Shown here one piece after another: positions 220 to 20,450 of a stretch of 21,846 nt of DNA (the first letter of the stretch is position 1; each line of letters begins with the position of its first letter). The translations under genes were made by a program, and so were the position numbers. The stretch covers positions 1-21,846 of IMG/VR virus record IMGVR_UViG_3300049629_001331. One strand, written 5' to 3'. This DNA comes from a virus. A model generated the notes under the pieces. It searched no databases and was not told where the DNA came from. It saw nothing but the letters and a program-made list of their open reading frames with translations.

Positions 220-267
220 GGGCCTGCGGGCCCCTTTTTCCTTCTGGTGAATTTTAGTCCCAGGAGG
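220..267 (+). promoter_or_regulatory. Intergenic unit 1: hairpin, T-run, CTTCTGGTGA, SD
   Basis: Stem GGGCC/GGCCC (220-224/229-233), T-run 235-239, conserved motif CTTCTGGTGA (241-250) and Shine-Dalgarno AGGAGG (262-267), 8 nt before the ATG at 276. First of twelve related units in the left half. The hairpin plus T-run looks like an intrinsic terminator; the role of the motif is inferred (candidate promoter). Confidence 0.8.
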
Positions 268-275
268 ACAATTCC

Positions 276-2207
276 ATGTCTAAGTTTATAAAATCTGCCA
301 AAACCAAGGCGGCCCGCCTTCAGCTTGCCCACTCCCTTGAATGGGAGATGCAAGCTGAGTTGGGAGCTGACCCCGCTCTCTACTATTCCTCTCTTTCTAA
401 CGTTCTACTTGAGTTACGGGAGTGGATGGAACTCAATCCATCCACTCACTGGATTGGATGGATGGATTGGAATAATCTATCCAGCTCCCAACAATGGATT
501 ATCTCTCGGGTCATCCTCCGAGAAGTAACCTTGGAGGAGGCAATAGAAACAAATAAAGTGCGCCTCCACCTTATCTGGTACCTCAAGTTAAATGAAGATA
601 TCGGACTCCCCTACGAGAAAGAGGGGTTTTGGTTCGAGGAGCTAAGAACTCCTCAGTTAGCTGAACGCCTAGTAAATCTAGGTGTTAAACACTGGTGGGA
701 AGTAAAGCGCTTTCTCCCTCTATGGGAGGGTGTCCGCGCCCGGGAGTGCGAATGGAACTCTAGTCGCCAACCGTACCACAGTACGGTATTGACAATAGCC
801 CTTACCCCAAACTATAACCGCCTGCCCATTCGGGTTAAGCGGGTACTGGTTCGTATGCCTGTTCCCACCCGCATTGGGAATGTCTGGGATCTAATTCCAG
901 CTGCGCGAGTATGGCAGTATAATACAGAGATTCCTAAGTCTCTGGCTGTACGGCTGGGAACTATGTACAAGTCCCGTCCAGACCTCCGAGCCCTTGCTGG
1001 AATCATATGGAAAGAGGAGGGGGGACAATGGGATCGAGCGCGCCGTCGTTCCCGTACCGAACGCATCGTTGCCTTCTGGCAGCGCTTTAATGAGATGTGC
1101 CGCTCGGGGCGCACGGCCATAGCTCAATACCTATGGGTCAATGGCCATGAGCACCTAGCCCTCCGTAAACTCTACGGGGAACTTAGTTGTGCTATTGAGC
1201 GCCCTTTGCTCAAAGCCTTTAAAGAGAACAAAGAAACTATATTTGGGGAGGGCGGGTATATACCTACCTTGAAGGTAGCAGTAGCTAATAAACTACTATT
1301 ACGTGAGAATCCTCCAGAGTACCTAATTCCACTGGTAATCACTTTCGGAAGCCGCTCTGAGGAGTGGCTTAGTAAGATGGCCAAGCTCGGCTACAGCGAG
1401 CATGACGCCACCTATTGGCTACCCCTCGGCGGGCAGGGATTGAGCGAGTTCCTATTCGCTCAGGGGGAGCGCCTACGCCAGCGCTCCACTTCAGTTTCTG
1501 AACTCGGCTTAATATGCCGAGTCTGGCACAAACTAAGTGTGGAAGAGCGCTCTCTGCCATTTCGTCAATTAGTGACGGTATGTAAAGCACGTAAGTACCT
1601 GGTGATTAATCATTGGGAGTTTGCTTTTGAGTGCGCCTATTGGGGCGTATCTACCCCGGATTTCGAGTACTACGAGGATCGTTTTATACGTTCCCTACAA
1701 GTACCAAACTTCCTCCCAGAGATTGATGCTACTCGGGATGGAATACGGGCTTACTTCCTCCCCCGAGAAGATACGCGAGGGCTCTTCCTCGGTGAGTATA
1801 CCAACTGCTGCCAGCACCCAGACGGGGAAGGAGAGGCCTGCGCCTGGTATGGACAAGAAAAGCCCAACTCCGGATTCCTCGTATTTGAGAATGATTCAAG
1901 AACCATAATAGCCCAGTCCTGGACCTGGATTAACCAGTCCGGGGATCTGTGCTTCGACAATTGCGAAGCACTTGGGTTAGGGCAACAAGAGCCCACGGTT
2001 ATTCTTCTCTACGAAGAGATAGCCCAGAAGATTCTTGAGATGCACCCCGTCAATCGGGTGCTCCTCGGAGCAAACGGGGATCTCTATGGTGCCCCCCCCG
2101 CATGGGGCAAGGTACATAAGGTAGGACGGTCTCTTCTACCAGAAGATTACCAAGATTACACGGATGCTGAGCGTGTTCATGTGATCAGACGTCGCATATC
2201 GAGATGA
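276..2207 (+). CDS. Large protein with C-terminal PcfJ-like (CCQ...AQSW) domain
   Basis: A 643-residue protein with a clear SD (AGGAGG, 8 nt spacing). The first ~480 residues are Trp-rich, helical and unassignable by eye. The C-terminal part (about 485-600) resembles PcfJ-like domains of conjugative plasmids and large phages: LGEYTNCCQ with C511, C512 and Q513, a further C522, then PNSGFLVF (530-537) and IIAQSWTW (544-551), followed by a LCFDNCEALG segment. PcfJ-like proteins are known from plasmid transfer regions, but their biochemical role is poorly defined, so no reaction is proposed. The Cys/His cluster (C511, C512, H514, C522) could bind metal; that is inference. No signal peptide or membrane segment is evident. 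It is followed directly by unit 2 and looks monocistronic. The CDS is near certain; the family assignment is moderate. Confidence 0.85.
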   Translation: MSKFIKSAKTKAARLQLAHSLEWEMQAELGADPALYYSSLSNVLLELREWMELNPSTHWIGWMDWNNLSSSQQWIISRVILREVTLEEAIETNKVRLHLIWYLKLNEDIGLPYEKEGFWFEELRTPQLAERLVNLGVKHWWEVKRFLPLWEGVRARECEWNSSRQPYHSTVLTIALTPNYNRLPIRVKRVLVRMPVPTRIGNVWDLIPAARVWQYNTEIPKSLAVRLGTMYKSRPDLRALAGIIWKEEGGQWDRARRRSRTERIVAFWQRFNEMCRSGRTAIAQYLWVNGHEHLALRKLYGELSCAIERPLLKAFKENKETIFGEGGYIPTLKVAVANKLLLRENPPEYLIPLVITFGSRSEEWLSKMAKLGYSEHDATYWLPLGGQGLSEFLFAQGERLRQRSTSVSELGLICRVWHKLSVEERSLPFRQLVTVCKARKYLVINHWEFAFECAYWGVSTPDFEYYEDRFIRSLQVPNFLPEIDATRDGIRAYFLPREDTRGLFLGEYTNCCQHPDGEGEACAWYGQEKPNSGFLVFENDSRTIIAQSWTWINQSGDLCFDNCEALGLGQQEPTVILLYEEIAQKILEMHPVNRVLLGANGDLYGAPPAWGKVHKVGRSLLPEDYQDYTDAERVHVIRRRISR

Positions 2208-2240
2208 CGTTCAACTACATCCTTGTTAAGTAGTTAATAG

Positions 2241-2292
2241 AAGGGGCACTGCGCCCCTTTTTCTTCTAGTGAACACTAACTCCTAGGAGGAG
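2241..2292 (+). promoter_or_regulatory. Intergenic unit 2: hairpin, T-run, CTTCTAGTGA, SD
   Basis: Stem AAGGGGC/GCCCCTT (2241-2247/2253-2259), T-run, CTTCTAGTGA (2263-2272), then CCTAGGAGGAG (2282-2292) as SD just before the ATG at 2295. Confidence 0.85.
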
Positions 2293-2294
2293 AT

Positions 2295-2438
2295 ATGAAG
2301 CTAGATAAATATGATATCACCTACATTGTATCTGTGATAGTGTTGGTATTTACCTGCTCCGCTATTGCTGGTGTAGTAGCTGTAGAGGCATGTTACGGAG
2401 ACCCAAAGTCTCCACTCTGTGAGGAGGTGAATAAATAA
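2295..2438 (+). CDS. Small single-span membrane protein, CX8C family copy 1
   Basis: A 47-residue ORF starting after a strong SD and ending TAA. One hydrophobic segment (residues ~8-31, including FTCSAIAGVVAV) is followed by a short polar tail, EACYGDPKSPLCEEVNK, with two cysteines eight residues apart. First of four consecutive paralogues with the same plan. The tail probably lies outside the membrane with the cysteines disulfide-bonded (inference). The Cys inside the hydrophobic stretch is not in a convincing lipobox. Function unknown. Confidence 0.75.
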   Translation: MKLDKYDITYIVSVIVLVFTCSAIAGVVAVEACYGDPKSPLCEEVNK

Positions 2439-2441
2439 TAA

Positions 2442-2497
2442 ATAAGGGGCCTTACCAAGGCCCCTTATCTTTTAGTGATCTTTATACCCAAAGAGGG
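2442..2497 (+). promoter_or_regulatory. Intergenic unit 3: 12-bp hairpin, CTTTTAGTGA, SD
   Basis: Perfect stem ATAAGGGGCCTT/AAGGCCCCTTAT (2442-2453/2457-2468), CTTTTAGTGA (2469-2478), SD GAGGG (2493-2497) 4 nt before the ATG at 2502. Confidence 0.85.
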
Positions 2498-2501
2498 TGT
2501 C

Positions 2502-2636
2502 ATGAATACCAAATTATTAATTGCCATTGCTGTCAGTGCCGTTTTAATAACATGCTCTGCCATCATTGGCGGAGTATACGCAGGCATTTGTCACGGTAAC
2601 TACCCCGTGACGGCGTGCGAAGTAGATAAAGACTAA
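2502..2636 (+). CDS. Small single-span membrane protein, CX8C family copy 2
   Basis: A 44-residue ORF ending TAA. Hydrophobic segment ~4-27 containing ITCSAIIGGVYA, then GICHGNYPVTACEVDKD with a CX8C pair and an acidic/basic end. The C-S-A-I core of the membrane segment is shared with copy 1. It has its own hairpin/motif unit upstream and another downstream, so it appears to be a separate transcription or processing unit. Function unknown. Confidence 0.75.
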   Translation: MNTKLLIAIAVSAVLITCSAIIGGVYAGICHGNYPVTACEVDKD

Positions 2637-2641
2637 AAGAT

Positions 2642-2700
2642 AAGGGGCCTGGGTGGGGGCCCCTTTTTTCCTTTTGGTGTACATCAATCTCCAGAAAGAG
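2642..2700 (+). promoter_or_regulatory. Intergenic unit 4: hairpin, T-run, CTTTTGGTGT
   Basis: Stem AAGGGGCC/GGCCCCTT (2642-2649/2658-2665), T-run, motif variant CTTTTGGTGT (2671-2680), weak SD-like AAAGAG before the ATG at 2706. Confidence 0.8.
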
Positions 2701-2705
2701 ACATT

Positions 2706-2861
2706 ATGCAACGACACATCAACAACACTGTAGCCGCCTTTGTAGTAGCTACCACCGCCGTTCTCGGTAGTAGCTACTACATCGCATATATTGTCGCCCG
2801 TGACGGTATATGCGTACGCCCTCTACCTCACAAGGTAGAGGCTTGTGAGCGTCTACGATAA
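2706..2861 (+). CDS. Small single-span membrane protein, divergent copy 3
   Basis: A 51-residue ORF ending TAA. Hydrophobic segment ~8-31 is followed by ARDGICVRPLPHKVEACERLR. The cysteine pair is spaced CX10C rather than CX8C and the membrane segment lacks the C-S-A-I core, so this is the most divergent member. The SD is the weakest of the four. Function unknown; same position, size and topology as its neighbours. Confidence 0.7.
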   Translation: MQRHINNTVAAFVVATTAVLGSSYYIAYIVARDGICVRPLPHKVEACERLR

Positions 2862-2869
2862 GTAAGTAG

Positions 2870-2917
2870 GGGGCCAGCGGCCCCTTTTCCTTCTAGTGAT
2901 CTATAACCCTAGGAGGG
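2870..2917 (+). promoter_or_regulatory. Intergenic unit 5: hairpin, T-run, CTTCTAGTGA, SD
   Basis: Stem GGGGCC/GGCCCC with triloop AGC (2870-2875/2879-2884), TTTT, CTTCTAGTGA (2890-2899), SD AGGAGGG (2911-2917) 3 nt before the ATG at 2921. Confidence 0.85.
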
Positions 2918-2920
2918 ATT

Positions 2921-3055
2921 ATGAAATACACATTATCTTACATAGCAGCTATTGTGGTAATTCTTGGCGCATGCGGCGCCATCGTTGGCCTTGTATACCA
3001 TGAGGCCTGTTATGGACCTCTACCTACCTCACTATGTAAGGTAGACAAAGAGTAG
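2921..3055 (+). CDS. Small single-span membrane protein, CX8C family copy 4
   Basis: A 44-residue ORF ending in tandem TAG TAG. Hydrophobic segment ~5-26 (VVILGACGAIVGLVY) then HEACYGPLPTSLCKVDKE with CX8C. The tail EACYG...P..LC..V.K closely matches copy 1. ILGAC could pass as a lipobox here, but the other copies do not support lipoprotein processing. Function unknown. Confidence 0.75.
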   Translation: MKYTLSYIAAIVVILGACGAIVGLVYHEACYGPLPTSLCKVDKE

Positions 3056-3060
3056 TAGTT

Positions 3061-3114
3061 AAGGGGCCTGGGCGAGGGCCCCTTTTTCCTTCTAGTGATC
3101 TATAATCCTAGGAG
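3061..3114 (+). promoter_or_regulatory. Intergenic unit 6: hairpin, T-run, CTTCTAGTGA, SD
   Basis: Stem AAGGGGCC/GGCCCCTT (3061-3068/3077-3084), T-run, CTTCTAGTGA (3089-3098), then TATAAT and SD AGGAG (3110-3114). The TATAAT touches the SD, so transcription from it as a -10 box would remove the SD. It is probably not a sigma70 promoter. Confidence 0.85.
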
Positions 3115-3120
3115 TACATC

Positions 3121-3636
3121 ATGAATGGTTTACAGATGGAGAAAGTAGTGTTGCGTGTAATCGAAGAGTTAGGTTTTAAATGTCCCAAGCCCCGTGAGGT
3201 ATGGGGTGAGGGTTACTTGTATGGCGCCGCCCGTGATCTCGCGAGTAAGCATCTAGAGCTCAACTCCCGAGGCGGTGTCCTTCGTCGTCTCGTCCCCACC
3301 GATGATTGGGGAGTCCTAGACCGGGTGTACAAAGTAGATGTAATAGTCCGCCAGTATACTGAGGAGTTGTGGGCTCTTCAGCTCACTACTGACGCAGACG
3401 CAGTATATAAGAAGCTGGGACAGCTCTATAGTACCGACAGTCTTCGTCTGGCTGTTGGCATCACCAAGACCTGCTTGGTTGAAATTAAACCCCCTCAGCC
3501 TACCTGGGAGGGGCTCGGTTTGACTAGCCGGGCGGACCACGACCAAATAGAGGAGCGCCTCTATGAGATGTTCGAGATGATAGAGAAGAGTGACAAACTT
3601 CTTCACTATCAGTTAGACCTAAGCTGGTTAAAGTAA
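3121..3636 (+). CDS. Unknown protein, possible PD-(D/E)XK-like nuclease fold
   Basis: A 171-residue soluble protein with SD AGGAG. After a helical N-terminus (MEKVVLRVIEELGF) the middle shows a strand-like pattern VYKVDVIVRQY...ELWALQLTTDADAV (about 69-98). This is reminiscent of the D...(E/Q)xK core of PD-(D/E)XK nucleases, with D in VDVIV and Q in LQLT. The catalytic Lys position would be Thr, so an active nuclease is doubtful and the fold itself is only a suggestion. The C-terminal helix is acidic (QIEERLYEMFEMIEKS). It stands alone between units 6 and 7, with a structured noncoding stretch downstream. Confidence 0.6.
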   Translation: MNGLQMEKVVLRVIEELGFKCPKPREVWGEGYLYGAARDLASKHLELNSRGGVLRRLVPTDDWGVLDRVYKVDVIVRQYTEELWALQLTTDADAVYKKLGQLYSTDSLRLAVGITKTCLVEIKPPQPTWEGLGLTSRADHDQIEERLYEMFEMIEKSDKLLHYQLDLSWLK

Positions 3637-3638
3637 TA

Positions 3639-3781
3639 GGGTATAGGCAAGTCCTAGTTACTGAGGAGTCTATTAATCGAATACTCCTCAAAGTAAATGT
3701 GATGCCTATGCTACCTGGGTGGAGTCACGGCTGTGGTTCCACTCGCTCGATTACATAGGCGCTAAGTGCATCTATGTAATC
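3639..3781 (+). ncRNA. Candidate structured RNA between genes
   Basis: No ORF fits here, but several stems do: ATAGGCA/TGCCTAT (3643-3649/3703-3709) closing over TGAGGAGT/ACTCCTCA (3662-3669/3683-3690); then GTGGA/TCCAC (3719-3723/3738-3742) and a perfect 10-bp GATTACATAG/CTATGTAATC (3749-3758/3772-3781). This is denser pairing than simple termination needs. It is not a tRNA, as no T-loop or anticodon arm fits. Could be a small RNA or a leader of the next gene. Confidence 0.4.
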
Positions 3782-3792
3782 AATTAATACTC

Positions 3793-3843
3793 AGGGGGCC
3801 CACTCCCCCTTTTCTTTCTAGTGAACCCTTACTCTAGGAGGAG
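3793..3843 (+). promoter_or_regulatory. Intergenic unit 7: hairpin, T-run, TTTCTAGTGA, SD
   Basis: Stem AGGGGG/CCCCCT (3793-3798/3805-3810), TTTT, TTTCTAGTGA (3815-3824), SD AGGAGGAG (3836-3843) 7 nt before the ATG at 3851. The stem sequence differs from the GGGGCC type but the layout is unchanged. Confidence 0.8.
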
Positions 3844-3850
3844 TAAATTC

Positions 3851-4003
3851 ATGTGCCCTTACCACACTTATCTTCACGTATTAAATCGTCAAACAATTCA
3901 ACGTCGGTCTGTAGATGGGCCGGCATGTCATCTAGACATTGATGGTCATCGTTGGTATGTTCTACCAGATGGTGACTTCGAGGTCATCACGCTAATCGAG
4001 TAG
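3851..4003 (+). CDS. Small unknown protein, 50 residues
   Basis: The start is taken at ATG 3851, which follows the strong SD. A GTG at 3821 in the same frame belongs to the conserved TAGTGA motif and lies upstream of the SD, so it is rejected. The product is rich in His, Tyr and Asp (CPYHTYLHVLNRQ, then CHLDIDGHRWYVLPDGDFEVITL). The second half looks like a small beta-hairpin unit. No known motif; ends TAG. Confidence 0.65.
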   Translation: MCPYHTYLHVLNRQTIQRRSVDGPACHLDIDGHRWYVLPDGDFEVITLIE

Positions 4004-4011
4004 TACTTACT

Positions 4012-4064
4012 GGGGAGCTATATGCCCCCCTTTTTTCTTCTGGTGATTCATCAGTCCCAGGAGG
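4012..4064 (+). promoter_or_regulatory. Intergenic unit 8: hairpin, T-run, CTTCTGGTGA, SD
   Basis: Stem GGGGaGC/GCcCCCC with one mismatch (4012-4018/4024-4030), T-run, CTTCTGGTGA (4037-4046), SD AGGAGG (4059-4064) 4 nt before the ATG at 4069. Motif and SD spacing closely match unit 1. Confidence 0.8.
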
Positions 4065-4068
4065 ACAC

Positions 4069-4821
4069 ATGTACAAAATCCTAGCGGCGTCAATCTACAC
4101 TGCACTACAGGCGGCGGGCGTATACGTCCACCCAACGACGTGGGCATTCATCTCGTATTATTTCATGGGGGGCTCTCAGCCACCGACCTTGTCTGAAGCC
4201 GACATCGCTGAGACACGCGATGCGGTAATAGCAAACCTCAAGGCTCGTCTTAAGGACAAAGAAATGAGCCGCCGCACCTCTCTCGTTACTTTCGTGGACA
4301 CAACAGAAATCGATTGGTGGTCTTCTTTAGCCGGGGCCATCGGTAACTTCAACTACCGCATTCTGGCGGTAGGTCCCGACACCATCAAGGTGGAGTGTCG
4401 TGACACGTGGAACTTCAATCCCAACTCCTATTACATGAAGCTACCTTGCCCGCCTCGTCTAGCGGGTATCCTATCTTCTCTGGCTAAGAAGGTAGGTATA
4501 GAGGTCTCCTACAATGGAGGAGAGCTAATTACCCGTGAAGAGCAGCTGGCCAAGCTCAATCCTGGTCGTGCCTTCACGACCGTGTGGGAAGTAGAGATAC
4601 CCACAGCGGAAGTAATTCCTGAGTGGGCTACTTACTGGGAGGTGGGTACTTGGAATGACGGTAATTACGCCTTCATTCGGCCTCTTAAGTATGTACCATT
4701 ACCCCTCTGCCGCTACCAGCGGGGTGAAGGAGTTTATGTTGGACGGGTCTACCATCCCGACATCGATTACGTGTCGATGTTAGAGGCGGGGTGGGCTCCC
4801 TCTGTAGATTTACCTGAATAA
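4069..4821 (+). CDS. Unknown protein, 250 residues
   Basis: Strong SD. The N-terminal ~35 residues are moderately hydrophobic (ILAASIYTALQAAGVYV...WAFISYYFMGG) and could associate with membrane, but they are interrupted by Pro and Tyr. A helical stretch follows (residues ~44-68), then a mixed alpha/beta region with several Trp/Tyr motifs (FNYRILAVGPDTIKVECRDTW; WEVEIPTAEVIPEWATYWEVGTW). No catalytic motif is recognised. Flanked by hairpin/motif units on both sides, so apparently monocistronic. Ends TAA. Confidence 0.85.
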   Translation: MYKILAASIYTALQAAGVYVHPTTWAFISYYFMGGSQPPTLSEADIAETRDAVIANLKARLKDKEMSRRTSLVTFVDTTEIDWWSSLAGAIGNFNYRILAVGPDTIKVECRDTWNFNPNSYYMKLPCPPRLAGILSSLAKKVGIEVSYNGGELITREEQLAKLNPGRAFTTVWEVEIPTAEVIPEWATYWEVGTWNDGNYAFIRPLKYVPLPLCRYQRGEGVYVGRVYHPDIDYVSMLEAGWAPSVDLPE

Positions 4822-4827
4822 TATTAG

Positions 4828-4864
4828 GGGGCTGTGGTTAACAGCCCCTTTTTCCTTCTAGTGA
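4828..4864 (+). promoter_or_regulatory. Intergenic unit 9: 8-bp hairpin, T-run, CTTCTAGTGA, no SD
   Basis: Stem GGGGCTGT/ACAGCCCC (4828-4835/4841-4848), T-run, perfect CTTCTAGTGA (4855-4864). No CCTAGGAGG follows, which separates the motif from ribosome binding. Confidence 0.8.
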
Positions 4865-4881
4865 CAACCTGCCTCGCTCTA

Positions 4882-5031
4882 ATGATAGAAGAGGTTACGT
4901 GCCTCCGCAATCTCTCTATATTTCTCACGGTCGAGGGATATGCGGTAGATGCTGACAACCTATGGGAGGAAGCTTGCGCTCTCTCCCATCGAGTAGAAGA
5001 GAAGGGGCACGCTCTCTTGCGTAGTCTGTAG
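4882..5031 (+). CDS. Small unknown helical protein, 49 residues
   Basis: The in-frame ATG at 4882 gives an acidic, probably helical peptide (MIEEVTCLRNLSIFLTVEG...NLWEEACALSHRVEEKGHALLRSL). Upstream in-frame codons run into the hairpin, so a longer form is unlikely. There is no SD before the ATG, unlike most neighbours. Support comes from its place between two hairpin/motif units and its protein-like composition. Ends TAG. Confidence 0.5.
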   Translation: MIEEVTCLRNLSIFLTVEGYAVDADNLWEEACALSHRVEEKGHALLRSL

Positions 5032-5045
5032 CTAGTCGTGTAGTT

Positions 5046-5084
5046 AAGGGGCTGTTGGGTGGGCGGCCCCTTTTCTTTTAGTAG
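5046..5084 (+). promoter_or_regulatory. Intergenic unit 10: hairpin, T-run, CTTTTAGTAG
   Basis: Stem AAGGGGC/GCCCCTT with a 13-nt loop (5046-5052/5066-5072), then TTTT and CTTTTAGTAG (5075-5084), the most divergent motif copy. No SD precedes the ATG at 5108. Confidence 0.75.
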
Positions 5085-5107
5085 TTTTATACACCCAAGT
5101 ATACACA

Positions 5108-5839
5108 ATGAGAAACAACAACAACCAAGCCCCCAACCCCTCTAACCAACCCACCATGAACAACACTAACCCCACCAACTCCAAAAACTACGTATTTACC
5201 CTTAACGTAAGTCGCACTGCCAGCACTAAGCCTGGCGTTCTTGCTTACGTGCACAATGGCGCTATCAAGCGCCGCCTGGATCAGTCTAGCTACTGGCTGG
5301 AGTTCCGGCTGATATCCAATAAGAACGGGGAGGTACCTCTCACTACCTCCAATGGCTATAGCTTATCTACGTCCAAGTTTGTAGAGCTTCTGTCCGGAGA
5401 CACCAGCGATGACGTGATAATGTCTGTAGAGTTATCTACAGATTTCGAGGACGAGTGGGACTCGTCATGGGGGAGTGTAAGAGTTAGCTTCAGCGCGGAA
5501 GACCTTCGCGTTGGACGCGAAACAGAGTATAAGGGTGCGATAACCCAGTACTTTCACCTCGAAGGTGCGGAAATCCAACTTCATCGGGAAGTCATGCGTC
5601 CGAAAATAGACCCGTCTATACTAAACGGGTTTGAGGGTATCGCAAAGCCTAACGTGGTAACTGCAGAACAGTTACATAGTAAAGCGGCCGCCCGCAAACG
5701 CAAACGGGGGGCTGCTGTAGCAGCTCGTGCAGCAGCAACAGAAGCAGCCGCAGCCGCAGCAGCTCGTGAAGCAGCAACAGAAGCAGCAGCAGGTACTGTT
5801 GATAAAGCAGCTGCAGATATAAACAATATACTTGACTAA
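5108..5839 (+). CDS. Unknown protein with Asn/Pro-rich head and basic Ala-rich tail
   Basis: 243 residues. Residues 1-25 are an Asn/Pro/Thr-rich disordered head. Residues ~28-165 form a compact beta-rich domain (YVFTLNVSR, YWLEFRLIS, VIMSVELSTDFEDEW, SVRVSFSAEDL). The tail has a basic patch (AAARKRKRG, ~195-203), then an Ala-rich helix with a 13-residue imperfect duplication (AARAAATEAAAAA / AAREAATEAAAGT, DNA copies at 5721-5748 and 5760-5787), ending DINNILD. A beta core with a flexible tail would suit a nucleic-acid-binding or structural protein, but no family is recognised. It sits directly upstream of the polymerase-like gene. No SD; the start is the first ATG after the motif. Confidence 0.8.
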   Translation: MRNNNNQAPNPSNQPTMNNTNPTNSKNYVFTLNVSRTASTKPGVLAYVHNGAIKRRLDQSSYWLEFRLISNKNGEVPLTTSNGYSLSTSKFVELLSGDTSDDVIMSVELSTDFEDEWDSSWGSVRVSFSAEDLRVGRETEYKGAITQYFHLEGAEIQLHREVMRPKIDPSILNGFEGIAKPNVVTAEQLHSKAAARKRKRGAAVAARAAATEAAAAAAAREAATEAAAGTVDKAAADINNILD

Positions 5840-5842
5840 GTA

Positions 5843-5880
5843 AAAAGGGGCCCTGCTTGGGCCCCTTTTCCTTTTAGTGG
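5843..5880 (+). promoter_or_regulatory. Intergenic unit 11: 11-bp hairpin, T-run, CTTTTAGTGG
   Basis: Stem AAAAGGGGCCC/GGGCCCCTTTT (5843-5853/5859-5869), then CTTTTAGTGG (5871-5880). Precedes the polymerase-like gene. Confidence 0.85.
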
Positions 5881-5897
5881 CTCTACATTACCACTAA
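5874..5897 (+). promoter_or_regulatory. Hairpin overlapping the motif in the polymerase leader
   Basis: TTAGTGG (5874-5880) pairs with CCACTAA (5891-5897) across a 10-nt loop, ending 4 nt before the ATG at 5902. No SD is present. The conserved motif is therefore one arm of a second hairpin here, possibly a translational or autoregulatory site. Confidence 0.45.
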
Positions 5898-5901
5898 CAC
5901 C

Positions 5902-8900
5902 ATGAATGTCAACTTTGTCTTCTTCCAATCTTTTGTAGCCTCTATCAGCGCCGTTATCGCAGGTACTCGCACTACTGCACGACGTGTAGGCCCTGGTCGC
6001 CGCGCCCAGCAGATAGCGAGCCGTCGCGCTAATCGCGTAGTACGCCGTCGCTCTCGTCGTATAGCGTCAGCCGGCCGCCCCATCCGCTCCTTACCTCAAA
6101 GCCAACGCCCCTGCGTTGTAAAATCAGCACGACGTGCGCTACGTCGTAGTACTGTCGTTACTAATAACACTCAACCTATTCGTACTAACAGTGTTAGTGC
6201 CCCTATCCGTCGCTGTAGTAACGACGTCGCGCCTCGTCCCTATCAGCGCCCTACCAAAGCTGCTGTTACTGTTAAATCAGTAGTTAAAGATAAGGCTGCC
6301 GCCTCTATATATGCTGCCCTCGACCAAGGGCGCCTAAACTATCGTGGCAAGGGCCGTACTTGTGTGGGCAAGAAGTACAAAACTAAAAACAATAAAACGG
6401 CTTTAGCGCTAGCTAAAGCTGCCAATAAAGCAACACGCGTTAAACGCTGTATGAGCGTTGTAGTACCAGAATTACCAAGTGACGTACTGGCTATCCGCAT
6501 GATAGCCATAGGCAAACTATGCGGTGTCACTTTTGTACAAGGGGACATAGCGTCTTATTGTGACGGTGTCGTTACTGTACCTTCATTCGAAGATACATAC
6601 GCGATAACTCACGAACTTGTCCACCACTGCCAAGCACTAGGTCTTACTGAAGACCTAGATATAGCTCTGGTGTCTGAGGCTGCTATTGGCGCGGGCTCGG
6701 CCCAATGGGACGCTACTAAATCCTACTACGAAGGTACGGAGCACGAGAATGACGAATACGAAGCAGCTCTGCTTATGTACGACCCGGCGTTAGTGGCCCG
6801 CCTTTTATGCACTCACTACCTCATGGCTGCGTTTGTAGAAAGCGGGGCACCTGGTCCTGATGATGCGTGGATGGATGTAGTAGATAGTTTAGATCCTGCG
6901 ATTTGTCGTGAAGTCGTAGGTCTCGATGATCGCGTACTCGATTATAAAACCTATGGCGAATATGCTGAAGACGTTGGATATGATGACACTAATACGTTAT
7001 TAGACTGGGAATTTGTCTTTAACAGTAGTGTCAACAACAATGATGCTGTTGCGTTAACCATTCAAGCAATTGATGGTCTTATTGGTGCGGCGCCCGCAGC
7101 AGTAACTCCTACCCGCCCGCTCTCTAACATAGGAGCCCCTACTAAGGGGTTAGAGAGTGATAGCTCCTCAATCAATACCACCAACACTAGCACTGCCATG
7201 AAAAGCATTATCGAGATGTTAATTCCTGACCCTAGTACTCTCGGTGGAGTCGTGTCTCCTAATCAGGTAGCGCGCATCACAGCAGCTCGTAAAGAGCTAA
7301 CCCGCCTGTTTGGGGCTAATAACTTCGACCTTCTGCCTGAAGGTCCGATTCTCTATGTCGTGTCTCCTAACAGCCGTATGTGTAAGAAGTTCCTTGCGCT
7401 TCTAGACCACCGTGTTGTTTACACCACAGACCCTAAGATGAATCCTAAGGTCATTAACTTAGGTGTAACTAAGTCTATACCCTACGAAGCCGACAAGCAT
7501 ACCTATGCTACTAAGACCGAATGCTTAGTTAGCATGTATAGTGAGCACTTCCTCACTAAGTTAGCTACGTGGTCTGGTGACGATTTAGCCGCTCTCGTAG
7601 GCTGTCTGTGTGTCAAGCAGCACCGTATTGTTAGTGTTGAGGGTCCCTGTGTGGTTATCAAGGGTAATAACCGCAACACTACCTTCAACTTTAGTAGCTG
7701 TACCGTCAATGATGGTCGTCAGAGTCGCATCGCTAACGAACTAGTTAAAGTAGGAGGCAAAGACTACAGTGGTCGTGTAGCCCTCGTAGCGCTCTGTATG
7801 AAGGTAGCGTATAATGCTACTGGCGCGCGCGCCATTCTCAATGAGATAACCAACCTGTGGCGCGAAGACATTAATTACGGTGCTCAGCCTAAAGAAGGCC
7901 AGTCTCTGTTTGAGATTAATCGCGGTACGACTCGTCCTATCGTGTTCAAGCCTTGGGATAAGGCCTTCCCCTTCCTGCAAGTAGAGAACACTAGCCTCGC
8001 ACCCAGCGATCTTGAATTGTCGCTCAAAGCCGGCGTTATAGCCGCGCCGGATAAATACAATTCAGAATGGATCGCTGTAGGGCCGGGCGCCAAGGCCATG
8101 TTTCTTGGGCTTGAGGATGATAAGATATACTCCATCCATGACTTTAGCAAACCCACTAAGGTGTACAACCGTCCACCTAGCTCGGGTAAATACACCCGTG
8201 CTGAGATCAGAGATCGTCGTGATAGCCTACTTCGCGTTGATTTAGGTGATGGTAGCTATAGTTGTGGTGGTGGCCTCTATCTACGCACCGCATTCACCAA
8301 TAGCCGCTTTGGCTTTGGCAGTGGTGTTGCTGCTATACGTCGCGACCTCGAATTCGAATACACCGTACCTAAGACCATAACTAAAGAGTTTCACGTACTT
8401 CGTATTCCTAGCGGAGTCCGCGCTCTTATGGCTGCTGATCTAGATGACGTTGTGAGTAAGCTCATGGAAGTCATAGAAGGTAAGATAGCGAAGGCAGAGG
8501 GCCAGGTTTATGCTCCTGGTAGCCCTATCATCAGTATTATGCAGGGCAAGTACTGCATAGTTAAGAATGAGACCTTCGCGCAGGACATCCGCGTAATAAG
8601 CGGGACTGTCACGCGTAATGGCGTCGAGGGCCGCGCTGATAGCGTCACTATTCGGCTTGAGACTGAAATGGTGGGGCGTGACCAGGTCCTCAAACTTCGT
8701 GGTCTAGGTAAGAAGCTTACTACTCTTCCCTATGACGTTAAGGGACTATCTCAACCCTGGGATATCATTCTAAATAACGAGACCACTAAGGGGTGGCCCG
8801 CGCTCATCGAGATGTTTGCCATTGAGAAGGGGGGCTGCACCTATACTCCTGAGGGTGCGCTTCTCACCATCGATAATACTCGTGAAGTCATTGATCTTAT

Positions 8901-10947
8901 GACTGAGAGTAATAGCTTTACTGAGTGGGCTCGAGCCAAACTGGCTACTGATGATACTGGGGCCAGTGTTAAAGAGGTCATCTCTTTTGATATGGCCCGT
9001 GACCTGTGGGATTCTATCTCGTCTGTAGTCGCTAACGATGACATCAATGTAATCTATATCGACGATACCAGCGTCCGTATCGAAGAAACCGTAGAAGTTA
9101 TATACGGCTATCTGCCGTACGATATCGAGATAGCCACTCCTCGTGAGTCCGTAGCATTCTCCAAGATGACTATGGAGCAGATTGGTATTGTGGCCCTACA
9201 GAACCGCGCTTGGGGCGAAGCGCTCATGGAGGAGGTTAAGTACGATAACGTTATGTCCATAGTTAGCATGATCACGTCTAAAGACTGTGCTGATTACATT
9301 AACATCAGCACTACTGAGGGGCGTGACCATCTACGGGACATTATCGGTGTAGTTAACAACTACGTTTCTGATAGCTCCCCCGGCAGTGACCGCAACCTGC
9401 TAGATCGTTTCGCTATTGTCTACCCCAATGGAGTGGATATTGTTGCCCAGAACAACGGCAATGAAGTCTCTCTTCATATTAATGGTAAGGCCTTAAGTGC
9501 ATTCGGTACCTTCTCTGGCGCCTCCGCTACTGGTATTATGTTAGACCTCCTTACACTGTTGGCCTACGTTACTGATGAAGGGATTGAAGACCAGAGCGGT
9601 TTGGATAGTAAAATCTACTCCATGACCGCTAAGGTCAGCCGTGGTTTACGCACATGGTGTAACACTATGGTTAAATCCAAGGGCATTCTGAAAAGTATGG
9701 CCCGCGCCGGCGATGTGGTTGTTGGTAAGGTCAAGACCAGCTATAGCCCGCTGCTCCATAGCGCTGATGGCGTGCCTGTAATTCTCATGCACCCCGATTG
9801 CCCTATGGTGCGTATGCTTGGCATCGAAGAGAACCAGATTATTGGGATACAACGTACTCCTATGGGTTTCATCCTATGCGGCCGCGTTAAGTTCTCTACT
9901 ACTGATGCCTTCGTCGCACACTATACGGTCAACCCTCTCCTATGGCACGCCGTTAACGAAGGCGATGGTGATGGTGATCAGTGCGGCGGCATTAATGCTC
10001 ACAAGTATGGTATTAACACTGAAAGTGCCCTCACTATCAATGCTAGTCTCATGGGCATGGGCGGCTACTTCTACTGCTACGAAGCAGATGACCTGCCGTT
10101 CTTCGCCTTCATGAGCTATGAAGATAAGATGGGTAAGAAATCCCTTACTAAGTGGGATAAGGCTGTAGCTACTGCTATCGCTGTCGATAAGTACGTCAGC
10201 GACGCTGCTGAGGTGCATATGCACTACAAAGTAGCTGTAGGTGTTGGCTATGGTATCTGTTCCGCACTTGCCTTCCAGACATGGGATAGTATGTATCGCG
10301 CTAGCGGCGTTGATACCGATGCACTTAAGGCGTGCGTTATCGCCTGGCGGTTTGTCTATGAAAGCATGGGTCTTGGGGGCTATACTCCTGAGGCTAAGAT
10401 CTTCATGGCGACCCTAGTACAAGCCGCTCGCGCCTGGGCTGCTGGCGTGCCTATGTATAAGTCGTTGCAAGACGGGTTATACTACTCTGCCAACTCCACT
10501 AAGCTTGCGGATACGGATCGCCAAGGAGGTGGTGTACCTCCTGCTCGGGCTATAGCTAACCTTATGCCCGCTAAACTGGCTAAGGAACCCAACGTAATCT
10601 ACCAGCTTATAAAAGCTCGTGCCCGTACTCTCACTTACGGTGCTCTCGAACGGGGTGACTTCGCTAGCGATAGCCTTATAAAGTCATCTACTATCTACGG
10701 AGCCTTCCGTCGTACTGGCCAGGGCCATGATCCTGTGGCTCCTATGACCCAGGATGACGCAGCCAGTTATGGTGCTGATGATATCGTTCCCGTTAGCGTG
10801 TTTCATATGGTAAGTGAGTTCCAACTCTCTAACTATGTCAGGAACCCCCAACTCAAGCAGCTGTTGGAAATCGCAACTGCTGTACATCTCGACCTCGGCG
10901 ACTACAAACTAGAGCTCGCTGAAGCTGAAGATCATCCTGATTTCTAA
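5902..10947 (+). CDS. RNA polymerase-like protein (beta'-type DxDGD double-psi barrel) fused to a zincin-like domain
   Basis: 1681 residues. Residues 1-22 are hydrophobic, ~23-85 strongly Arg-rich, ~130-165 Lys/Ala-rich. A HELVHH motif (H237, E238, H241) is followed by an acidic EHENDEYEAALLMY segment (E285/E287), as in zincin metalloproteases where a downstream Glu completes the zinc site. A Ser/Thr/Asn linker lies near 416-433. The C-terminal third carries the polymerase signature: R1318 in QRTP, then NPLLWHAVNEGDGDGDQ with D1355, D1357, D1359. In E. coli beta' the matching parts are R425 in NRAP and HPLVCAAYNADFDGDQ; Arg to first Asp is 35 there and 37 here. KLRGLGKK (931-938) may be the beta-type barrel lysines, and a helix near 1437-1455 may match the bridge helix. 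Single-chain DxDGD polymerases are known in phages (YonO, crAss-like). No SD. DNA- versus RNA-template use is unknown. Confidence 0.85.
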   Translation: MNVNFVFFQSFVASISAVIAGTRTTARRVGPGRRAQQIASRRANRVVRRRSRRIASAGRPIRSLPQSQRPCVVKSARRALRRSTVVTNNTQPIRTNSVSAPIRRCSNDVAPRPYQRPTKAAVTVKSVVKDKAAASIYAALDQGRLNYRGKGRTCVGKKYKTKNNKTALALAKAANKATRVKRCMSVVVPELPSDVLAIRMIAIGKLCGVTFVQGDIASYCDGVVTVPSFEDTYAITHELVHHCQALGLTEDLDIALVSEAAIGAGSAQWDATKSYYEGTEHENDEYEAALLMYDPALVARLLCTHYLMAAFVESGAPGPDDAWMDVVDSLDPAICREVVGLDDRVLDYKTYGEYAEDVGYDDTNTLLDWEFVFNSSVNNNDAVALTIQAIDGLIGAAPAAVTPTRPLSNIGAPTKGLESDSSSINTTNTSTAMKSIIEMLIPDPSTLGGVVSPNQVARITAARKELTRLFGANNFDLLPEGPILYVVSPNSRMCKKFLALLDHRVVYTTDPKMNPKVINLGVTKSIPYEADKHTYATKTECLVSMYSEHFLTKLATWSGDDLAALVGCLCVKQHRIVSVEGPCVVIKGNNRNTTFNFSSCTVNDGRQSRIANELVKVGGKDYSGRVALVALCMKVAYNATGARAILNEITNLWREDINYGAQPKEGQSLFEINRGTTRPIVFKPWDKAFPFLQVENTSLAPSDLELSLKAGVIAAPDKYNSEWIAVGPGAKAMFLGLEDDKIYSIHDFSKPTKVYNRPPSSGKYTRAEIRDRRDSLLRVDLGDGSYSCGGGLYLRTAFTNSRFGFGSGVAAIRRDLEFEYTVPKTITKEFHVLRIPSGVRALMAADLDDVVSKLMEVIEGKIAKAEGQVYAPGSPIISIMQGKYCIVKNETFAQDIRVISGTVTRNGVEGRADSVTIRLETEMVGRDQVLKLRGLGKKLTTLPYDVKGLSQPWDIILNNETTKGWPALIEMFAIEKGGCTYTPEGALLTIDNTREVIDLMTESNSFTEWARAKLATDDTGASVKEVISFDMARDLWDSISSVVANDDINVIYIDDTSVRIEETVEVIYGYLPYDIEIATPRESVAFSKMTMEQIGIVALQNRAWGEALMEEVKYDNVMSIVSMITSKDCADYINISTTEGRDHLRDIIGVVNNYVSDSSPGSDRNLLDRFAIVYPNGVDIVAQNNGNEVSLHINGKALSAFGTFSGASATGIMLDLLTLLAYVTDEGIEDQSGLDSKIYSMTAKVSRGLRTWCNTMVKSKGILKSMARAGDVVVGKVKTSYSPLLHSADGVPVILMHPDCPMVRMLGIEENQIIGIQRTPMGFILCGRVKFSTTDAFVAHYTVNPLLWHAVNEGDGDGDQCGGINAHKYGINTESALTINASLMGMGGYFYCYEADDLPFFAFMSYEDKMGKKSLTKWDKAVATAIAVDKYVSDAAEVHMHYKVAVGVGYGICSALAFQTWDSMYRASGVDTDALKACVIAWRFVYESMGLGGYTPEAKIFMATLVQAARAWAAGVPMYKSLQDGLYYSANSTKLADTDRQGGGVPPARAIANLMPAKLAKEPNVIYQLIKARARTLTYGALERGDFASDSLIKSSTIYGAFRRTGQGHDPVAPMTQDDAASYGADDIVPVSVFHMVSEFQLSNYVRNPQLKQLLEIATAVHLDLGDYKLELAEAEDHPDF

Positions 10948-11002: not shown

Positions 11003-11444
11003 AGCTCTCCCCTCCATATGATAGGTAGTATCCAGTATTGCTCATGACAGCGAATGTTACTAGCGGCGGCTTATGCTCGTGACGGCGAATTCTATTAGCG
11101 GTGGCAATAAACTATCTGTTGAGTACTCCCTAAGGATACAGCAAGAGCTGCGTTAGTTCCATTAGCCACTCCCTTTCAGAAGAGCTATTGTCGCGATAGT
11201 TACAATAGCTATACTAGCCACTCCCTTTCGGAGGTACTTAAGCTACGATAGCTACCATAGCCGCCCTAGCCACTCCCTAACGGAGGGGCTTGTGTCGCAC
11301 TAGTCGCGATAGCTACCATAGTTGCGCTAGCTGCTCTAACCACTCCCCAGCGGAGGGCCTATGGTACTCGAGCTGCGAAAGTAGCCGATGCCACTCCCCA
11401 ACGGAGGGACATAACCTCTAATTAATCACTATTACCTATTAGAT
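11003..11444 (+). repeat. Noncoding direct-repeat array (candidate origin or partition region)
   Basis: Two 31-bp repeats start at 11040 and 11075 (core TGAC(A/G)GCGAAT...TAGCGG(C/T)GGC). Then CCACTCCC boxes begin at 11166, 11218, 11270, 11340 and 11391, with a decayed TACTCCC near 11124. Spacing is 52, 52, 70 and 51. Most boxes read CCACTCCCnnnCGGAGG and can fold as a CTCC...GGAG mini-hairpin. Three interiors share a CGATAG(C/T)TAC(C/A)ATAG motif. No ORF fits. Iteron-like spacing suggests replication or partition, but there is no initiator gene or clear A+T-rich unwinding element beside it. Confidence 0.6.
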
Positions 11445-12199: not shown

Positions 12200-13210
12200 A
12201 TGACTACACTACACACAATTCTGTTATCTAGACAGGGCGTCGAAAATAGAAGACAGTTTAAAGAACAACCCTTCGGGGAAGATTTGGGCAATGGCATCAC
12301 CTTAGATATGGTTGCCATCCCGGGGGGAACTTTTACGATGGGTTCATCGCCAAATGAGGAATATAGTTTTGATGATGAATACCCTCAACATCAAGTAACT
12401 GTCCCATCTTTTTTCATGGGTAAATACCCCATCACCCAAGCCTAGTGGAGAGAGGTCGCCTCTCGCACAGATTTAAAAGTTGAAAGAGACCTTGATCTCA
12501 ACCCGGCCCATTTTAAAGACCGCCCCAATAGTGATCGCCGCCCCGTAGAACAAGTCAACTGGTACGATGCCGTTGAATTTTGTGCGAGATTATCAAAACT
12601 GACGGGAAGGGAATACCGACTACCGAGTGAAGCGGAATGGGAATACGCTTGTCGTGCTGGAACTACTACCCCATTCTACTTTGGGGAAACCATTACAGGG
12701 GAATTGGCTAACTATGACGCCAGCGAAACAACTCCCGTGGGACAATTTACACCCAATGCCTTCGGACTGTACGATATGCACGGCAATGTCTGGGAATGGT
12801 GTGCTGATACTTGGCATGATAACTATGACGGTGCGCCTAGTGACGGTAGTGTTTGGCTTGATAATAATCAAGAGGAAAATATTGATGGAAAGAGCAGATT
12901 CGGCACATATTCTGTCATGCGGGGCGGTTCCTGGGGCAACAATCCTAATCTCTGCCGTTCCGCGATTCGCTACGACACCTACTGCCGCGTCAACCGCTAC
13001 TTCCTTAACGGTTTTCGGGTAGTCTGCGTCGACCTTGATCGCGAAGGTGCTGATTCCCCTCGATTTTGGGATAAAGCTGATCACCTGATGGTGGTAACGG
13101 TGGGAGGTGCAGCACTAGGTGGATCGATTGCGGGAGTTTACGGTGCGGTTATTGGTGCGATATTAGCGGCGGGCTGCGGATGGTATATTACCTTTAGGAA
13201 AGCAAAATGA
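12200..13210 (+). pseudogene. FGE-sulfatase/C-type-lectin protein with variable-region-like end, broken by TAG
   Basis: 336 codons in one frame, interrupted by TAG at 12443-12445 where the family reads TQxQW (here KYPITQA-stop-W). FGE-sulfatase landmarks: MVAIPGGTFTMGS (~37-49), PVEQVNWYDAVEFC, YRLPSEAEWEYACRAG, FGLYDMHGNVWEWC, RGGSW (241-245) and GFRVVC. The segment 241-275 (12920-13023) has the form of a diversity-generating-retroelement variable region: surface codons ATT, TAC, GAC, ACC, TAC, TGC, GTC, TAC, TTC, CTT all end in C or T, as expected from AAY template codons, and it ends GGTTTTCGGGTAGT. A C-terminal Gly/Ala-rich membrane segment follows (about 295-328). No reverse transcriptase or template repeat is in the window. 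It may be dead, or made as a fragment, or read through. Confidence 0.8.
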
Positions 13211-13249
13211 AAACTTTGTTATCAGCAATCAAATAATAGAGGTTATGTT

Positions 13250-13618
13250 ATGTTGTCATTTGAAGAGCTTCAGAATAGCGTATTAGCAGAAAAACAATTG
13301 CTGTCATATGAGGAGTTTCAGAGTCACGTTTTAAAGGTATTTAATGCCTCCAAAGAGGAGTGTGATTTCAGTGATTTCCCGTATGCTTTCTTCGCAGAAG
13401 TTAGTTACACTAATTGCCAGTGGCTCCAGTTCGGGGTAAGATACATCACAGACCCTCAGAACTCTAATTATGGAAGCTGGCTTGTCAGTAAAAAGTCTAA
13501 AGATTGTAAAGCTTTGTCGGATTCCTTAGATCAAGGAATAAAGGCCCTTGAGCAGCAGGTAGAGAAGAGTATCAAAGAGGAAATCGGTGTTTTTAAACGC
13601 TTAGAGAAGTTAAAATAG
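13250..13618 (+). CDS. Unknown 122-residue protein, paralogue 1 of 3
   Basis: Starts MLSFEELQNSVLAEKQLLSYEEFQ, preceded by AGAGG. A helical N-terminus is followed by a beta section (FFAEVSYTNCQWLQFGVRYITDPQ) and a long C-terminal helix (LDQGIKALEQQVEKSIKEEIGVFKRLEKLK). Paralogues lie at 14572-14937 and 14990-15355. Members alternate with the FGE-like genes, suggesting a shared role or joint duplication. It does not look like the four-helix Avd accessory protein of retroelements. Ends TAG, followed by a 12-bp hairpin. Confidence 0.85.
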   Translation: MLSFEELQNSVLAEKQLLSYEEFQSHVLKVFNASKEECDFSDFPYAFFAEVSYTNCQWLQFGVRYITDPQNSNYGSWLVSKKSKDCKALSDSLDQGIKALEQQVEKSIKEEIGVFKRLEKLK

Positions 13619-13624
13619 TTGAAG

Positions 13625-13659
13625 TCATCCCCCGACCGTCGCGATCAGTCGGGGGATGA
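13625..13659 (+). terminator. 12-bp hairpin, host-like
   Basis: TCATCCCCCGAC pairs perfectly with GTCGGGGGATGA (13625-13636/13648-13659), 6 nt after the stop codon. There is no T-run. Unlike the left-half units it has no CTTCTAGTGA motif. Confidence 0.6.
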
Positions 13660-13674
13660 AATAGCCTAGGGTTT

Positions 13675-13961
13675 CAGTTATCAGTTACCAGACAAATTAC
13701 TTATCTAGGAGCAAAAAAATGTCGTATCAAGATGAATTAATGAAAGATTGGGACATTGAAAGACAAGTACAAGCCTTAAAGGTAGTAGCTTGTGAGTATC
13801 CTCTTATCGCTGGATATAGCCAAGAAGAGTTATTGCAGTTTGCAAAAACCGACAAAGATGCTTTTGACCTTTTTGCGGCGATACAAATGGACACAGCAAT
13901 TAAAAATATGGAACAAATAAAATGTAATTAGCTGTCAGTTATCAGTTATCGGTTATCAGTA
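13675..13961 (+). repeat. Short tandem ATCAGTT-type repeats
   Basis: Runs of TTATCAGTTATCAG flank the small gene at 13719 (13675-13691 and 13933-13961) and recur near 14522-14543, 14940-14960 and 17490-17502. Heptameric short tandem repeats of this kind are familiar from cyanobacterial intergenic DNA. They occur only in the host-like segments of the window. Confidence 0.6.
13719..13931 (+). CDS. Small unknown acidic protein, 70 residues
   Basis: SD TAGGAG upstream. An all-helical, acidic, cytosolic-looking product (MSYQDELMKDWDIERQ...YSQEELLQFAKTDKDAFDLFAAIQMDTAIKNMEQ). It lies between the first 122-residue paralogue and the second FGE-like gene, inside short tandem repeats. A+T-rich codon use matches the host-like cassette. 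No motif recognised. Ends TAG. Confidence 0.7.
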   Translation: MSYQDELMKDWDIERQVQALKVVACEYPLIAGYSQEELLQFAKTDKDAFDLFAAIQMDTAIKNMEQIKCN

Positions 13962-13985
13962 AGCAAAACTATTAGAAGTAAGGCA

Positions 13986-14540
13986 ATGATTGAGATTGAA
14001 ATGGTAGAAATTCCTGGCGTAACTTTTAAGATTGGAAAATATCCAGTCACTTAGGAACAATATGAAGCGGTAATGGAAGTTAATCCTTCTTATTTCATAA
14101 ACAAACCTCAAAATCCGGTAGAAAGTGTTAGCTATAACGACGCTATAGGTTTTTGCATAAAATTAAATAGAATGACTGGTAAAACCTATCGCCTACCTAC
14201 AAATTCAGAATGGGAATATGCCTGTCGTGCAGGAACTGAAAGCCTATTTAGCTTTGGTGATGATTTCGAGCATCTAAAAGACTATGCTTGGTACGAAAAT
14301 AACTCTGGATTTATAACCCATCCTGTAGGACAAAAATTACCTAACGATTGGGGATTGTACGATATGCACGGTAATGTCTCGGAGTGGTGCCAAAACGTTC
14401 CTCGTGGTGGTGCATTTAACACTTGCCCTTATAATTGCCGTTCAGGAGTAGACATTTACGCTTATGACAAAGAATTTTACAGGCATGATATTGGTTTTCG
14501 GGTAGTTTGTGATTATCAATTAGCAATCAGTTATCAGTAA
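13986..14540 (+). pseudogene. Second FGE/C-type-lectin protein with variable-region-like end, broken by TAG
   Basis: One frame of 184 codons plus stop, with TAG at 14052-14054 (KYPVT-stop-EQYEAVM) where the family has Gln in TQ.QY. It starts near EMVEIPGVTFKIGKYPVT, so it lacks most of the usual leading region and is shorter than copy 1. Domain landmarks: PVESVSYNDAIGFC, YRLPTNSEWEYACRAG, WGLYDMHGNVSEWC, then RGGAF (from 14403) and GFRVVC. The region 14403-14506 again has many C/T-ending codons at the variable positions and ends GGTTTTCGGGTAGT, exactly as in copy 1. From ATG 14073 a 155-residue domain remains open. The tail runs into the ATCAGTT repeat (QLAISYQ). Probably a retroelement target or a relic of one. 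Confidence 0.75.
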
Positions 14541-14571
14541 TCAGGATTTAATCGTATCAACAGGAGATGTT

Positions 14572-14937
14572 ATGCTGTCATTTGAAGAGCTTCAGAATAG
14601 CGTATCAGCAGAAAAACAACTGCTGTCATATGAAGAGTTTCAGAGTCAGGTCTTAAAAGCATTTAAATGCACCAAAGAAGAGTGTGAGTTTTGGGATTCT
14701 TCTTATTATTTCTCGGCATTAATTAATTACACTAATGGCCATTATTTATTCTTTAGAGTCAGATATGTAACAAACCCTGAAAACTATAATTATGGTCGTT
14801 GGATCGTTATAAAAGAATACGACAAAGCTTGTAGAGACATTTCAGATTCTTTGATGCAAGCAATAAAAGTTGTTGCACAAAAAACAAAAGAAAGCATCAA
14901 GGAAGAAAATGCTATCTTTGAAAAAATAGAAAAGTAA
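14572..14937 (+). CDS. Unknown 121-residue protein, paralogue 2 of 3
   Basis: SD CAGGAG, start MLSFEELQNSVSAEKQLLSYEEFQ. Same plan as paralogue 1, but the middle has diverged (SSYYFSALINYTNGHYLFFRVRYVTNP) and the tail is more basic (VVAQKTKESIKEENAIFEKIEK). The leader, from the tandem repeat through AGGAGATGTTATG, and the first ~20 codons are nearly identical to those of paralogue 3, indicating a recent duplication of leader plus N-terminus. Ends TAA. Confidence 0.85.
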   Translation: MLSFEELQNSVSAEKQLLSYEEFQSQVLKAFKCTKEECEFWDSSYYFSALINYTNGHYLFFRVRYVTNPENYNYGRWIVIKEYDKACRDISDSLMQAIKVVAQKTKESIKEENAIFEKIEK

Positions 14938-14989
14938 TTAGTTATCAGTTATCAGTAATCAGGATTTAATCGTATCAACAGGAGATATT

Positions 14990-15355
14990 ATGCTGTCATT
15001 TGAGGAGCTTCAGAATAGCGTATCAGCAGAGAAACAACTGCTGTCATTTAAAGAATTTCAGAGTCAGGTCTTAGGGACATTTAATGCCTCTAAAGAAGAA
15101 TGTGATTTCTCTCCTTTATCATATGCCTTCTTAGCAGAAGTCAGCTACCATAAATACCAATGGTTACAATTTGAGGTTAGATACATAACAGACCCTGAAA
15201 ACTGTTACTATGGCCAATGGATTTGTGTTAAAAGGTACAATAAGGCCTGTAAGACTATTTCGGATTCCTTAAATCAAGGAATAAAGGCCCTTGAGCGGCA
15301 GACAGAGGAGAGCATCAAGGAAGAAATCGGTGCTTTTAAACGCTTAGAGAATTAA
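14990..15355 (+). CDS. Unknown 121-residue protein, paralogue 3 of 3
   Basis: SD CAGGAG, start MLSFEELQNSVSAEKQLLSFKEFQ. Its middle and C-terminus are closer to paralogue 1 (FNASKEECDF, LAEVSY, WLQFEVRYITDPE, LNQGIKALERQTEESIKEEIGAFKRLEN), whereas leader and N-terminus match paralogue 2, so it may be a recombinant of the two. Ends TAA. A truncated next gene follows at 15387 (ATG AGC TAA behind a good SD). Confidence 0.85.
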   Translation: MLSFEELQNSVSAEKQLLSFKEFQSQVLGTFNASKEECDFSPLSYAFLAEVSYHKYQWLQFEVRYITDPENCYYGQWICVKRYNKACKTISDSLNQGIKALERQTEESIKEEIGAFKRLEN

Positions 15356-15373
15356 TCGGTTAGTAAAACTTAT

Positions 15374-20383: not shown

Positions 20384-20384
20384 A

Positions 20385-20447: not shown

Positions 20448-20450
20448 AAT

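Follow-up and report, generated by a model that had tools for sequence, protein, structure and literature searches.

Four tiny open reading frames (A–D) stand in tandem in a stretch of viral DNA of 21,846 nucleotides, an IMG/VR virus record (IMGVR_UViG_3300049629_001331) referred to here as the window. The question they raise is whether they are genes and, if so, what their products do for the phage. The best nucleotide matches of the window, at ~87% identity, are Microcystis myophages of the genus Fukuivirus (MaMV-DH01, MaMV-DC, MaMV-CH/DL, and Ma-LMM01), and the window comes from a member of this genus that stands close to Ma-LMM01 and MaMV. Microcystis is a bloom-forming cyanobacterium and a heavily defended host. 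The 171-residue gene next to D was found in ten further IMG/VR contigs, and the island was compared across IMG/VR relatives, GenBank phages, and the 162-kb Ma-LMM01 genome. The comparison covers 17 loci, some of which are near-identical (L017/L018; CH02/DL01).

Table 1. Coordinates of the features discussed, in the window unless a locus is named. Hairpin energies were obtained by folding the 40 nt that precede each motif.
Feature	Position	Strand	Description
Accessory cassette array	241..5902	+	Ten hairpin and motif units; ends at the start of the last cassette's ORF
Hairpin GGGGCACTGCGCCCC and T-tract before A	2243..2262	+	Terminator-like, −15.1 kcal/mol
Motif CTTCTAGTGA of cassette A	2263..2272	+	Proposed promoter element; starts 32 nt from the ATG
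ORF A	2295..2438	+	47 aa, one span, CX8C (C33/C42)
Hairpin before B	2444..2466	+	Terminator-like, −18.9 kcal/mol
Motif CTTTTAGTGA of cassette B	2469..2478	+	Sequence pattern
ORF B	2502..2636	+	44 aa, one span, CX8C (C30/C39)
Hairpin and T-tract before C	2644..2669	+	Terminator-like, −18.0 kcal/mol
Motif CTTTTGGTGT of cassette C	2671..2680	+	Sequence pattern
ORF C	2706..2861	+	51 aa, one span, CX10C (C36/C47)
Hairpin and T-tract before D	2869..2888	+	Terminator-like, −15.2 kcal/mol
Motif CTTCTAGTGA of cassette D	2890..2899	+	Sequence pattern
ORF D	2921..3055	+	44 aa, one span, CX8C (C30/C39)
171-aa gene	3121..3636	+	Directly downstream of D; phrog_28304, function unknown
ORF70	L020 (MaMV-DC) 8412-8816	−	Published holin-like gene
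STIV_B116-like (DUF1874) gene copies	L021:9070-9420; L009:3191-3538; L015:915-1235; others	− (L021)	Annotated hypothetical in DH01

Short frames with a membrane span and a cysteine pair

Hydropathy identifies one strongly hydrophobic span in each of A–D, together with a Cys pair near the C-terminus. The window holds 30 ATG-initiated frames of 40–55 residues, four of which combine a span with a terminal Cys pair, against a mean of 0.015 (maximum 1) in 200 second-order Markov copies of the window. The original prediction of four tandem frames with single spans, three carrying CX8C and one CX10C, is thus confirmed. No intact frame of this kind occurs anywhere in the Ma-LMM01 genome. The frames had also been said to lie below gene-calling length; this holds for A and D, neither of which is annotated in any GenBank record containing it, but not for C, which is annotated in MaMV-DH01 as MaMV-DH010081 and left without annotation in MaMV-DC. 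Searches of Pfam, PHROGs, NCBIfam, and PADLOC gave no convincing match to A–D. Viral scans with the D and A alignments recovered the same contigs again and no homologues outside Fukuivirus, while those for C found nothing.

Conservation in relatives, on which the original prediction had staked itself, came out in favor of the genes. Five types (A–E) are found there, and none of the 21 distinct proteins has lost the frame or either tail cysteine. Measured against the window, dN/dS is 0.11–0.24 for A (relatives L015–L018 and MaMV-DC; Fisher p 1.5e-6 to 1e-3), 0.18–0.32 for B (L009, L011–L013, and L015), and 0.21–0.39 for D, which is present in all ten IMG/VR relatives and in five GenBank phages. 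Each gene offers about 32 synonymous sites for these values, and many of the pairs tested for A, B, and D are significant. Judged by these substitution patterns, A, B, and D are real coding genes under purifying selection (dN/dS 0.11–0.39), in keeping with the selection suggested beforehand. The relatives of C, in MaMV-DC and MaMV-DH01, have an almost invariant tail; its dN/dS of 0.55–0.66 is non-significant, with only these two close relatives to compare.

The proposal of repeated duplication and divergence applies to part of the set. Hhalign relates A to D at 3.8e-12 and B to D at 3.6e-13, and block-shuffle z scores among A, B, D, and E reach 8.0 (5.7 for D with E), so that by profile and shuffle comparison these four types are homologous, a duplicated and diverged family. 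Against the other types, C gives shuffle z scores of −0.2 to 1.7 and hhalign probabilities of 2–7%, and its resemblance to A, B, and D is seen in these comparisons only in architecture.

The anatomy of the A–D cassettes and their products can be described with considerable confidence. An AlphaFold model of D, built with the family alignment, comprises a helix (residues 2–31), a short turn, and a second helix (37–43) at a mean pLDDT of 78, with one tail cysteine at the end of the first helix and the other in the second. In A, B, and D, the charge bias favors an N-in/C-out topology; in C and E, it is ambiguous. If translated, A–D would be single-pass membrane proteins, most likely N-in/C-out. 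The invariant Cys pair is most simply explained by a disulfide that probably closes the short tail in the periplasm or thylakoid lumen. Small-xxx-small stretches (SAIxG/GAIxG), which lie within the span or at its edge in A–E, are suited to helix packing and may promote oligomerization.

A further cysteine inside the span varies between relatives, unlike the tail pair. It invites a reading of A–E as lipoproteins or release proteins, with the span cysteine as a lipobox and a mature lipopeptide of ~27 residues, and LGAC does occur at residues 15–18 of the window D. However, the −1 residue is A, T, or V among D orthologues, and the span cysteine gives way to L in the MaMV-DC copy of A and is missing from C and E. 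The tail pair, by contrast, is invariant. This reading was dropped on the variation of the span cysteine and its −1 residue; its probability is minimal.

In a cyanobacterial host, A–E could also mimic small single-span photosynthetic or respiratory subunits and tune host energy metabolism. Psb/Pet/CydX-type subunits resemble A–E in size and topology; they are not known to have a paired-Cys tail. A profile search of the PDB, which includes many such subunits, gave no match to the family up to E 10, and a pattern scan of bacterial genome contigs for D-type proteins found no homologue, host included. Mimicry of this kind is, on balance, very unlikely.

A reshuffled array of hairpin and motif units

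Each of A–D had been credited with its own hairpin and motif unit. This is true of all four, although the same unit also precedes unrelated genes of the array. It consists of a GC-rich hairpin and a T-tract (interrupted before B) followed by a CTTYTRGTG-type motif and stands before all ten array genes, which encode, in order, a 643-residue protein (at 276), A, B, C, D, proteins of 171, 50, 250, and 243 residues, and a 1681-residue protein (at 5902). The motif starts 31–36 nt from the ATG in all ten, and a Shine-Dalgarno sequence also precedes most of them. By pattern count, the window has ten units on the plus strand and none on the minus strand, and the Markov copies have none. The 162 kb of Ma-LMM01 contain the T-tract and motif combination at six sites, every one of them within the gp064–gp067 array and on its coding strand.

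By eye, CTTYTRGTG contains no −35/−10 pair. Its distance to the ATG fits a promoter with a short leader, and we infer that it may act as one. A transcriptome study of Ma-LMM01 by Morimoto et al. found no phage-specific motifs and host sigma-70-like sites throughout, and its early genes are gp054–gp063, adjoining the array (PMC5780444). Repeated CCACTCCC..CGGAGG units lie before the early region of the window (11100–11410), matching the place of the 42-bp repeats annotated in Ma-LMM01.

The strong conservation of the hairpins and motif could mean that the regulatory units themselves are what is conserved, as spacing or RNA, with the frames left untranslated. Purifying selection at the codon level in A, B, and D, with significant Fisher tests, the correctly spaced Shine-Dalgarno sequences, and the invariant cysteines all argue against this, as does an Rfam search of the units that returned no family. 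This alternative is highly improbable.

Cassette order and copy number differ across the 17 loci. MaMV-DC carries A and C, and DH01 carries D and C together with F, which is another kind of small span protein; in CH01, CH02, L010, and L014, D is the only one present. Longer series occur in L015 (E, B, A, D), L016 (E, D, A), and L017/L018 (E, A, D, A). Intact A–E copies thus range from none in Ma-LMM01 to four in the window, L015, L017, and L018. In every one of the 17 loci, the homologue of the 171-residue gene directly follows a TM/Cys cassette, if the broken A of Ma-LMM01 is included, and gene shuffling between related phages is seen at the units. The Ma-LMM01 copy of A is frameshifted by a net 20-bp deletion relative to MaMV-DC, and no further A–F copies were found in that genome. 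Barring a sequencing error in that record, the A–E family is, on this genomic evidence, dispensable.

The arrangement recalls known mobile units. The promoter-early stem-loop (PeSL) elements of T4-type phages, reportedly described by Arbiol et al. in 2010, are said to be mobile regulatory cassettes in which a stem-loop terminator is joined to a promoter. In the array, too, single genes are separated by a terminator-like stem-loop followed by a promoter-like element, and the region is plastic and shuffles small accessory genes; however, CTTYTRGTG is not among the known sigma-70 or T4 early promoters and, in Ma-LMM01, is confined to the gp064–gp067 array. Phage morons and small membrane accessory proteins, of which T4 Imm is an example, share with A–E their organization as autonomous, dispensable single-gene units and their small membrane products without wider homologues. 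They differ in that A–E are duplicated in tandem with an invariant Cys pair, and no sequence relationship was found. The "ORFanage" of cyanophage S-PM2, a phage ORFan cluster that can be lost under laboratory passage (PMC4503421), is similar as an ORFan cluster in a cyanophage but belongs to another phage group.

Several further features of the window were recorded. The 50-residue gene of the array (3851–4003), with a remnant near 4834–5031, belongs to a family of one to four copies per phage. The 1681-residue protein (5902–10947; Ma-LMM01 gp064) carries D[GA]DGD preceded by HPDC...GIxRTP, a stretch also present in a protein of a distant giant Microcoleus phage and reminiscent of the RNA polymerase DFDGD motif. 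An hhalign comparison with E. coli RpoC gave nothing and the AlphaFold model is unusable (pLDDT 33); an RNA polymerase is a lead only. An A-T-richer stretch (12200–15360) looks host-derived or imported; it contains stop-interrupted formylglycine-enzyme-like frames and three paralogous ORFs (13250, 14572, and 14990), each about 121 residues long. A CCCCCCTCCATCGGAGGCCG-like sequence occurs three times in apparently non-coding DNA at 20320–20500.

Lysis and the ORF70 span

The main rival reading concerns lysis, since the endolysin genes gp068/gp069 border the island. A–E could be tiny class III holins, antiholins, or modulators of lysis timing that act with these endolysins. Their single span, seen by hydropathy and in the AlphaFold helix of D, their N-in/C-out tendency, and their position beside the endolysin genes agree with this. 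On the other hand, they are encoded on the opposite strand to those genes, and several diverged paralogues in one genome are ill-suited to a single timing-critical pore. Since Ma-LMM01 is lytic with only a frameshifted A, the family appears dispensable for lysis, and the need in endolysin release that characterizes a class III holin is not found. An essential holin is rejected on this frameshift, which likewise argues against the lysis function first proposed insofar as a required role is meant. Overall, the lysis reading is rather unlikely.

The published holin-like gene of these phages, MaMV-DC ORF70, has a single predicted span at residues 2–24 (PMC12843271). It shares with A–E one predicted span and a place in the island beside the endolysin genes; A–E differ in their 44–51 residues, their Cys-pair tail, and their dispensability in Ma-LMM01. 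Nearly all of ORF70 residues 2–24 correspond to a translated hairpin, T-tract, CTTCTGGTG, and Shine-Dalgarno unit, and the window has closely similar DNA at 205–264, in front of an unrelated gene. In DH01, DL01, L015, and L017, the ORF70 homologue has a different unit upstream, and its ATG lies just after its own Shine-Dalgarno sequence, at or near the position of Met23. Met23 is very likely the native start of ORF70. The native protein would then lack the span, which is likely an annotation artifact. The toxicity data of the ORF70 authors concern the long form (PMC12843271). Read-through of such a unit can fake a membrane span, a point relevant to the published holin assignment; an artifact of this kind would leave the holin of these phages effectively without assignment, and this speaks for the lysis reading of A–E.

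Proposed accessory membrane effectors and a candidate ring-nuclease neighbor

In 13 of the 17 loci, a cassette encoding a STIV_B116-like protein lies just upstream of the TM cassettes. The protein matches PF08960 (E 8.7e-10) and AFV3-109 (E 3.5e-11) and has an invariant GH. The anti-CRISPR ring nuclease AcrIII-1 is one of the DUF1874 proteins (PMC7293037), and the STIV_B116-like protein is a candidate AcrIII-1-type ring-nuclease homologue, a likely anti-CRISPR. This window, MaMV-DC, L016, and Ma-LMM01 lack the homologue.

The best overall explanation, to which we assign a probability of roughly 0.45, is that A–D are accessory membrane-effector cassettes. They would be Fukuivirus-specific micro-genes, each an independently transcribed cassette of terminator hairpin, CTTYTRGTG promoter-like element, Shine-Dalgarno sequence, and ORF, located in a hyperplastic island between the endolysin genes and the early region. 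Their products would act as host- or competitor-dependent membrane effectors in counter-defense, host takeover, or superinfection exclusion, and each phage would keep the subset of cassettes that pays on its hosts and lose the rest.

Counter-defense or exclusion at the membrane is the function class favored, tentatively and at somewhat less than even odds, because A–E are accessory, shuffled, and dispensable and because the STIV_B116-like cassette adjoins them in most loci. Counter-defense is thus guilt by association with that neighbor, and the defense evasion first suggested gains circumstantial support from the AcrIII-1-like ring nuclease encoded beside the cassettes in relatives. A bolder version, which is quite unlikely, would make the whole array an anti-defense island in which each cassette, the ring nuclease of relatives included, is switched on alone from CTTYTRGTG, and A–E a new class of disulfide-headed membrane inhibitors of the membrane-acting defense effectors of Microcystis.

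The shared unit offers a testable phage-specific regulatory motif where the published transcriptome study found none. A–E also represent a conserved class of micro-genes that had been overlooked in the most thoroughly studied phages of a harmful bloom-forming organism, and their compact island is a place to seek anti-defense genes against Microcystis.
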